64,000 nucleotides of DNA, taken from Aestuariirhabdus litorea. GTDB lineage: Bacteria > Pseudomonadota > Gammaproteobacteria > Pseudomonadales > Aestuariirhabdaceae. A model generated the notes under the pieces. It was given only the letters and a program-made list of their open reading frames with translations, had not been told where the DNA came from and did no database searches. Below are positions 30,104 through 30,748 of this stretch, piece by piece. A program made the position numbers and the translations under genes. Position 1 is the stretch's first letter, and each line of letters starts with the position of its first letter. The DNA lies in contig NZ_QWEZ01000002.1 of assembly GCF_003864255.1 (NCBI RefSeq), forward strand, positions 1,178,001 through 1,242,000. The letters are read 5' to 3'.

Positions 30104-30111
30104 ACCTCATA

Positions 30112-30174
30112 GACGGCCAGCCTGACTGGCCGTCAACCTACTCTTGATTTAGCCGGGCTTTGCCCGGCTTTTTT
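30112..30174 (+). terminator. Hairpin pair and intrinsic terminator after DUF1329
   Basis: A first stem GACGGCCAG-N5-CTGGCCGTC (30112-30134) is followed by AGCCGGGC-N3-GCCCGGCT (30151-30169) and a run of six Ts. The second is a canonical rho-independent terminator for the DUF1302-DUF1329 operon. Confidence 0.88.
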
Positions 30175-30358
30175 ATGCCCAGGGAAGGGCGGTATGCCGC
30201 GAGAGCCAGGGAGGGCGTTAGCGGCTTATGCCCAGGGAAGGGCGGTATGCCGCGAGAGCCAGGGAGGGCGTTAGCGGCTTATGCCCAGGGAAAGGTGGTA
30301 TGCCGCGAGAGCCAGGGAGGGCGTTAGCGGCTTATGCCCAGGGAGAGTCGGTATGCCG
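30175..30358. repeat. 53-bp tandem direct repeat array (three full copies plus a partial one)
   Basis: Units begin at 30175, 30228, 30281 and 30334, an exact period of 53 bp. The first two copies are essentially identical, the third has two or three changes, and the fourth stops after about 25 bp. Each unit starts ATGCCCAGGGA and contains ATGCCGCGAGAGCCAGGGA and TTAGCGGCTT. The period is not a multiple of three and no gene spans it. It directly follows the terminator of the upstream operon. Confidence 0.93.
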
Positions 30359-30748
30359 ATAGCGATCCTTGGGGTAACAGGTCGTTTTTTTTCCTGCAAA
30401 AACGACACTCCAGACATCCCTGTCAGTCGTATGCCGCAGCCGTTTTTTGCTCCTGTGGCTATCTATCGTCAATACAGACACTCCCGACATCTCTTTGGGT
30501 CGAGAGCCAGGAACGGCGGCAGCGCCTGATGCCGTAAGCTTCCGGTTGAAGGTCGGCTAACGCAGGGTCGGGAGGCGATCCAAGCAGGCCCCATCGGCTC
30601 GACCCCAATCGGGGAATTTCATGACCTGGGTTAGTGTTGACCGCTGAGTCCGAATTGATTTGCTCTTGCCCGACACTGCATAATGCAACTGATAATCACG
30701 AGATGCGGCGATGTACTGCATCTCGAACAGCAGAGAAGCAGGGCGAGA
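30359..30748. other. Intergenic stretch with hairpin, short repeats and a degenerate copy of the 53-bp unit
   Basis: No gene is seen. A 9-bp perfect hairpin (GTCGTTTTT / AAAAACGAC, 30381-30406) is followed by two related pieces, ACTCCAGACATC and ACTCCCGACATC (about 30406-30500). At about 30500-30532 the sequence CGAGAGCCAGGAACGGCG...GATGCC closely follows the second half of the 53-bp unit, so an older copy lies 140 bp beyond the array. A possible promoter for the next gene is TTGATT (30655-30660), an 18-nt spacer and CATAAT (30679-30684). Confidence 0.6.

Follow-up and report, generated by a model that had tools for sequence, protein, structure and literature searches.

A terminator-adjacent two-hairpin repeat in Aestuariirhabdus litorea, dispersed through the genome and possibly linked with CsrA/RsmA

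Directly behind the terminator that closes a pair of DUF1302 and DUF1329 genes in Aestuariirhabdus litorea stands a tandem array with a period of 53 bp, and the same repeat is recognisable at 33 loci of this genome, all of which, on examination, start at the T-tract of an intrinsic terminator and lie on the terminator's strand. Each unit consists of two hairpins whose loop, A-N-GGA-N, is closed by a C-G pair and whose stems vary with compensation. We tentatively read the array as the local expansion of a probably mobile, REP/RPE-like repeat whose GGA hairpins may act on read-through RNA as decoys for CsrA, an account that we consider quite possible rather than probable. Were it true, a blank-looking intergenic repeat would amount to a reserve of regulator-binding hairpins tied to terminators, and mobile palindromic repeats would be connected to the Csr/Rsm network. 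Should CsrA play no part, the division of placements by lineage, at T-tracts or in frame and beside tRNA-Leu, still makes REP-like mobilisation testable in bacteria.

The array lies in a window of 64,000 nucleotides, the whole stretch of DNA that was analysed (contig NZ_QWEZ01000002.1, positions 1,178,001 to 1,242,000), and its parts are listed in Table 1. Tandem Repeats Finder places 3.5 copies of the 53-bp period, with 96% matches, at 30173-30358, and the preliminary description, which had reported such an array 3' of an operon terminator, was right in both respects: two units are identical, a third differs by two changes and a partial fourth follows. The left border is the T-tract of the DUF1329 terminator (GCCGGGC-TTT-GCCCGGC-TTTTTT), which is abutted by a perfect 7-bp stem. 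The 9-bp hairpin, the two ACTCC[A/C]GACATC pieces (30407-30418 and 30480-30491) and the degenerate further copy that had also been pointed out are all present, the last of them recovered by the covariance model described below. A coding repeat is disfavoured in the window by the period of 53 and by the sole open reading frames that overlap the array region, of 82 and 67 aa; there appears to be no reason to regard either as a gene.

Table 1. Features of the array and its surroundings, in positions of the window
Feature	Position	Strand	Basis
Intrinsic terminator 3' of DUF1329 gene	about 30151-30174	+	sequence, terminator scan
Unit 1: hairpins A and B	30173-30225	+	repeat finding, folding, covariance model
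Hairpin A of unit 1: TGCCC-AGGGAA-GGGCG	30176-30191	+	
Hairpin B of unit 1: GCCGC-GAGA-GCC-AGGGAG-GGC-GTTA-GCGGC	30196-30225	+	
Unit 2: same sequence as unit 1	30226-30278	+	sequence, repeat finding, covariance model
Unit 3: hairpin A with two substitutions, hairpin B intact	30279-30331	+	sequence, repeat finding, covariance model
Unit 4, partial: hairpin A degraded, hairpin B without its centre	30332-30358	+	sequence, repeat finding
Inverted module C1: 9-bp hairpin (30381-30406) and GAC-AGGGAT-GTC (30413-30424), minus-strand reading	30381-30426	-	sequence, folding, module C alignment
Inverted module C2, degraded and chimeric, with ACTCCCGACATC at 30480-30491; borders approximate	30438-30502	-	comparison with intact C modules
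Degenerate hairpin B, loop AGGAAC	30501-30525	+	model match 30501-30522 (19.1 bits, E 0.095), unit pattern

The supposition of the preliminary description that this is a genome-dispersed intergenic repeat, expanded locally, is borne out. With the array as query, BLASTN returned 35 matches in the organism's own genome at E up to 10; the unit pattern of hairpin B matched 32 times, against 2 for a reversed control pattern; and a covariance model of hairpin B only, built from 29 sequences and used to score 150 of 3070 first-look candidates, gave 57 matches (E up to 0.1). These 57 matches make up 29 loci which, with one more found by BLASTN (L230), are the 30 array loci examined. Eight weak BLASTN matches outside them (E 0.002 to 7.2) were all read individually: three are further elements directly 3' of a terminator T-tract (L316, L317, L318), which brings the recognisable loci to 33; four (L319, L320, L322, L323) were rejected on reading as chance; and one (L321), with no adjoining T-tract, could be a degenerate piece of the element. 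A unit with no other copies in its genome, the outcome that would have told against dispersal, was thus not what the search returned. The MalT-type regulator beside the array, to which attention had been drawn, looks incidental: what stays constant beside the element is the terminator upstream of it, not the gene downstream. The anatomy of hairpins and GGA loops, the adjacency to terminators at other loci and the spread to other lineages are additions to that description. Neither the plasmid nor the phage collection holds a match to the element, and an origin from a plasmid or phage is rejected.

All 30 array loci start at a T-tract followed by (A/T)TG, the T-tract being no part of the covariance model, and at 29 of them a script found a perfect stem of at least 5 bp directly 5' of the T-tract; the arrangement at the thirtieth, where the script had picked an inner T-run, proved on reading to be the same. 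The gap between T-tract and hairpin B is 15-19 nt in 26 of the 30 loci. The ATG is a property of the site and not necessarily of the element, since element-free terminators also often carry ATG after the T-tract: it is found at 2 of the 10 other terminators of the window, and at those behind groEL in the genus's two other genomes (G001, a sister species, and G002), where no element is recognisable. The terminator scan of the window found 11 terminators, one of which bears an array. Both T-tracts of a bidirectional terminator in the window (15825 and 15852) run into ATG, with the element absent.

The genes upstream of the arrays include those for GroEL, S20 (rpsT), PNPase (pnp), SodB, a cold-shock protein (csp), AceF, SecB and YebC, together with an ammonium transporter (amt), an FKBP (fklB) and porins, names that come from reading the translations and not from family search, which was used for DUF1302, DUF1329 and the MalT-type neighbour. 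Many of these upstream genes are usually strongly expressed. Two arrays are preceded by small RNA candidates with sub-threshold Rfam matches, each near the array's terminator: one is PrrF-like (L016 1337-1487, 82.7 bits, gathering 90) and the other ErsA/Pseudomon-1-like (L006 1797-1911, 35.6 bits, gathering 50).

Pairing within the unit was assessed in an alignment of 29 rows, in which 95.0% of cells are paired, against 19.8-58.6% with one arm slid. Its covariation score of 0.381 was reached by not one of 500 shuffles, which give 0.150. Pairs changed on both sides and the number of pair types show no excess in the same alignment (312 and 121 of 500 shuffles as high, respectively). The seed rows had been filtered on the loop and on GTA, and a second set was therefore taken by the outer stem alone; GGA occupies the loop in 20 of its 21 copies, and their inner stems read GCC/GGC, GGC/GCC or GTC/GAC, with a GCC/GGT wobble in two. 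Folded as RNA on both strands, the 53-nt unit reaches -22.5 kcal/mol on the plus strand and -22.2 on the other, values so nearly equal that energy alone cannot tell the strand. The mismatches of hairpin B in 97 distinct model matches, with the outermost pair left out, comprise 18 G.U and 7 A.C, a bias with p about 0.04 (0.043) if copies were independent, which they are not, the counts being small as well; it speaks mildly for an RNA fold of the GGA strand. The 30 array zones (10,334 bases) hold 95 GGA hairpins in sense and 27 in antisense orientation, against 21 and 19 in the flanks (110,046 bases). GGA hairpins dominate the predicted fold of a single unit; in that of the full window array they compete with long-range pairing, with closing-pair probabilities of 0.02-0.52 at five sense GGA sites and 0.01 at the antisense site, and this competition weakens the case for RNA folding of the GGA strand. 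The hairpins of module C, which follows the tandem part in inverted orientation, are read on the minus strand and mostly have GGA loops: a hand reading of 37 script rows, nine of them unrelated and dropped, left 28 recognisable copies, 20 of which keep A-N-GGA-N, with the loops on the opposite strand. The mismatches of this module (G.U 15 and A.C 4 in the 37 raw rows, 6 and 1 in the 28) carry no weight in the argument.

Loop and stem length fit the published CsrA/RsmA site, for which the CsrA SELEX consensus is RUACARGGAUGU, with GGA mostly in six-nucleotide hairpin loops and four or fewer contiguous pairs, and ANGGAN is the site of RsmE (PMC7652899). A succession of GGA-loop hairpins likewise marks CsrB/CsrC, RsmX/Y/Z and the TwoAYGGAY motif (RF01731), the last proposed to bind CsrA (PMC4333381); unlike all of these, the present repeat is dispersed over at least 33 loci and has no Rfam match over its array hairpins. 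A known RNA family is rejected: Rfam at gathering gave no match over the array hairpins of the window, and none of the Rfam Csr/Rsm families covers such hairpins in 17 loci at E up to 1, the nearest being PrrB/RsmZ (L037 1351-1473, 21.3 bits, gathering 44, E 0.78), whose match ends at the T-tract that precedes the array. The genome does carry csrA, which proves little, since nearly all genomes asked carry it: 41 of 45, a set that includes G002 with no match to the element, and 36 of the 37 well-assembled ones, close to the base rate expected for the class.

In the mechanism that we propose, the repeat would be mobile, as its patchy presence and its in-frame and tRNA contexts suggest, and its folded GGA strand would matter as RNA, to which the G.U bias and the identity of the loop point. 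Where a gene is well expressed, RNA polymerase that fails to stop at its terminator would carry transcription on into the array; the RNA so extended would display sites of CsrA/RsmA type, with CsrA binding presumed from the match of loop and stem only, and might titrate a little CsrA as a dispersed counterpart of CsrB/RsmZ. Against CsrA decoys speak the expectation that an array behind a terminator goes mostly untranscribed, the GGA loops of module C, which lie on the other strand and keep the motif incompletely, the competing long-range pairing across a whole array, and the in-frame inserts in housekeeping genes of other genomes, which suggest plain selfish mobility. A broader version, in which a mobile repeat plants near-consensus CsrA/RsmA sites on the RNA of strongly expressed genes (groEL, rpsT, small RNAs, tRNA-Leu), be it read-through or precursor, and so forms a distributed sponge coupling CsrA availability to overall transcription, seems to us unlikely.

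The most serious alternative, itself a fair way short of probable, is that the repeat is purely selfish REP-like DNA with no host function, in which a mobilising enzyme would recognise the hairpin and its A-N-GGA-N loop on single-stranded DNA and terminators, being exposed, transcribed and T-rich, would be the insertion target. A role for CsrA and plain selfish persistence are about equally credible, and we prefer the former narrowly. Related elements occur in other genomes: within the order at least 30 of 390 have matches (E up to 0.001), and within the class at least 31 of 369 (E up to 0.0001), own genome included in both; these are lower bounds, as the searches ran with stricter filters and scored 17-18 candidates a genome. 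A T-tract start was found at 7 of 28 loci in the order search (L175, L176, L177, L178, L179, L184, L197), eight of the 28 being off-centre, and at 6 of 29 loci of other families in the class search (L243, L249, L250, L258, L261, L267). Another group stands before tRNA-Leu genes and follows a copy of the 5' part of tRNA-Leu (L183, L188, L191, L199, L201, L202; the junction was read in five, with L191 off-centre), an intact tRNA-Leu lying nearby in all six such loci scanned, with anticodons taa, cag and gag. Others are open in frame in genes (L255, L265, L271, L200, L266, L268, L186, L189, L198, L263). Each of the ten in-frame carrier proteins that were tested matches a Pfam family; they are N6 DNA methylases (three; hsdM), the class I tRNA synthetases LeuRS (leuS) and ValRS (valS), GMP synthase (guaA), MurC (murC), RsfS, an HsdR-type protein (hsdR) and an outer-membrane efflux protein. 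The element falls within the matched domain in four of them (L255, L268 and L198 by Pfam, L265 by NCBIfam) and before, after or between domains in the remaining six; among the own-genome loci examined, no in-frame gene insertion was found. Such insertions in leuS, valS, guaA, murC, hsdM and hsdR, and the placement before tRNA-Leu genes, argue for selfish spread, as does the inverted module C, which fits BIME-like DNA; a fixed loop on stems whose changes are compensated argues against it. The same in-frame peptide also occurs in an IS91/ISCR-like transposase in two genomes (L195, NCBIfam E 1.1e-33, under the model's cut-off; L196, by sequence likeness), a possible carrier of the element.

Comparison with known palindromic repeats bears on the same question. 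Like the present repeat, REP/BIME elements (PMC3733652) occur as many short palindromes, mostly 3' of genes and in clusters, tandem or inverted, with G-T pairs in the stems and some copies intragenic; the present repeat differs from them in its two hairpins per unit, its A-N-GGA-N loop and its adjacency to T-tracts, and the constant GTAG tag of REP is absent. After GTA, which belonged to the seed-row filter, the fourth base in 97 distinct rows is G in 42, T in 37, C in 9 and a gap in 9, the G being mostly paired. That source counts 24 GTAG and 4 CGTC families of REP and has CGTC families also without a dedicated transposase (PMC3733652); GACG, the complement of CGTC, stands 5' of the first hairpin in several of the coding copies that the class search brought up. 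The Y1/RAYT transposase (PF01797) had no match in the own genome, which is 98.7% complete, and was found in 5 of 14 control genomes; its absence counts against selfish spread and, with that of a constant GTAG, leads us to reject a RAYT-borne REP. To the Rickettsia palindromic elements (RPE) the repeat is likened by placement, not sequence: relatives in other genomes of the class lie in frame within functional gene families, inside their domains or next to them, and leave the frame open, whereas the recognisable loci examined in the own genome are all behind terminators. On these grounds it is classed as a REP/RPE-like palindromic repeat, set apart from the REP families by their published description, and it may overlap with one of them. 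No description of the repeat was found in the text of the openly accessible literature, and 12-13-mers of the repeat brought up no bacterial-repeat paper by title among the matches listed.

Closer relatives afford a view of gain and loss. Five of the nine array places in the sister species G001 have flanks homologous to array loci of the own genome (DUF1329, L233; the ammonium transporter, L242; L127; L135; L231), two of the nine, L127 and L130, sitting at contig ends and perhaps forming one array. At the DUF1329 locus of G001 the same kind of terminator is followed by TTGCTTAC-AAGGAT-GTAAG and by B hairpins of GATCGC type; three full units here face two and a degenerate third there, of a different unit type. 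The element is not general around the DUF1329 gene, since 80 loci of its named relatives, mostly from Pseudomonas, gave two weak model matches (E 0.054 and 0.14). The remaining genome of the genus, G002 (87% complete), yielded nothing with the model up to E 0.001 under the stricter filters. Elements occupy the groEL terminators of the own genome (G000), G133 and G070 (three units), which represent three families, and no copy is recognisable at those of G001 and G002, where a degenerate remnant is possible; the pattern is consistent with recurrent gain and loss at favoured terminators, and with it the repeated insertion expected of selfish DNA. At the L220/L231 locus, which is common by descent, an A-U pair of G001 corresponds to G-C in one own copy, which suggests that pairing is kept in place and would tell against purely selfish persistence; three of the four own copies, however, are unpaired at that position.

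Two further explanations strike us as improbable. The arrays may be small RNAs with promoters of their own, decoys of CsrB/RsmZ type that owe nothing to read-through, and an array can have as many as 11 GGA hairpins, counted on both strands (L205), a density that recalls the Csr small RNAs; the arrays begin immediately after a terminator, however, and the Rfam Csr/Rsm search of 17 loci covered none of their hairpins. We give equally little credence to a DNA-level element at operon boundaries, a site for gyrase or a nucleoid protein or a back-up roadblock, like the BIMEs of E. coli: placement at 3' ends, inverted modules and tandem growth would suit it, but a strand-specific loop kept on varying stems is unexpected of a duplex DNA site, and the mismatches favour G.U over A.C. 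A chance local tandem duplication of no wider meaning accounts for the existence of a tandem array at this locus and can be dismissed as next to impossible, ruled out by the BLASTN, unit-pattern and 57 model matches across the genome; the sister species, too, carries an array there.

On the upstream side of the same terminator, the 3' UTR of the DUF1329 gene (30104-30175) gives a weak Rfam match to the SorX small RNA (30.6 bits; gathering 46.6), and AACCTACTCT, upstream of the terminator, is common to the window and G001; this UTR may be a candidate 3'-UTR small RNA.
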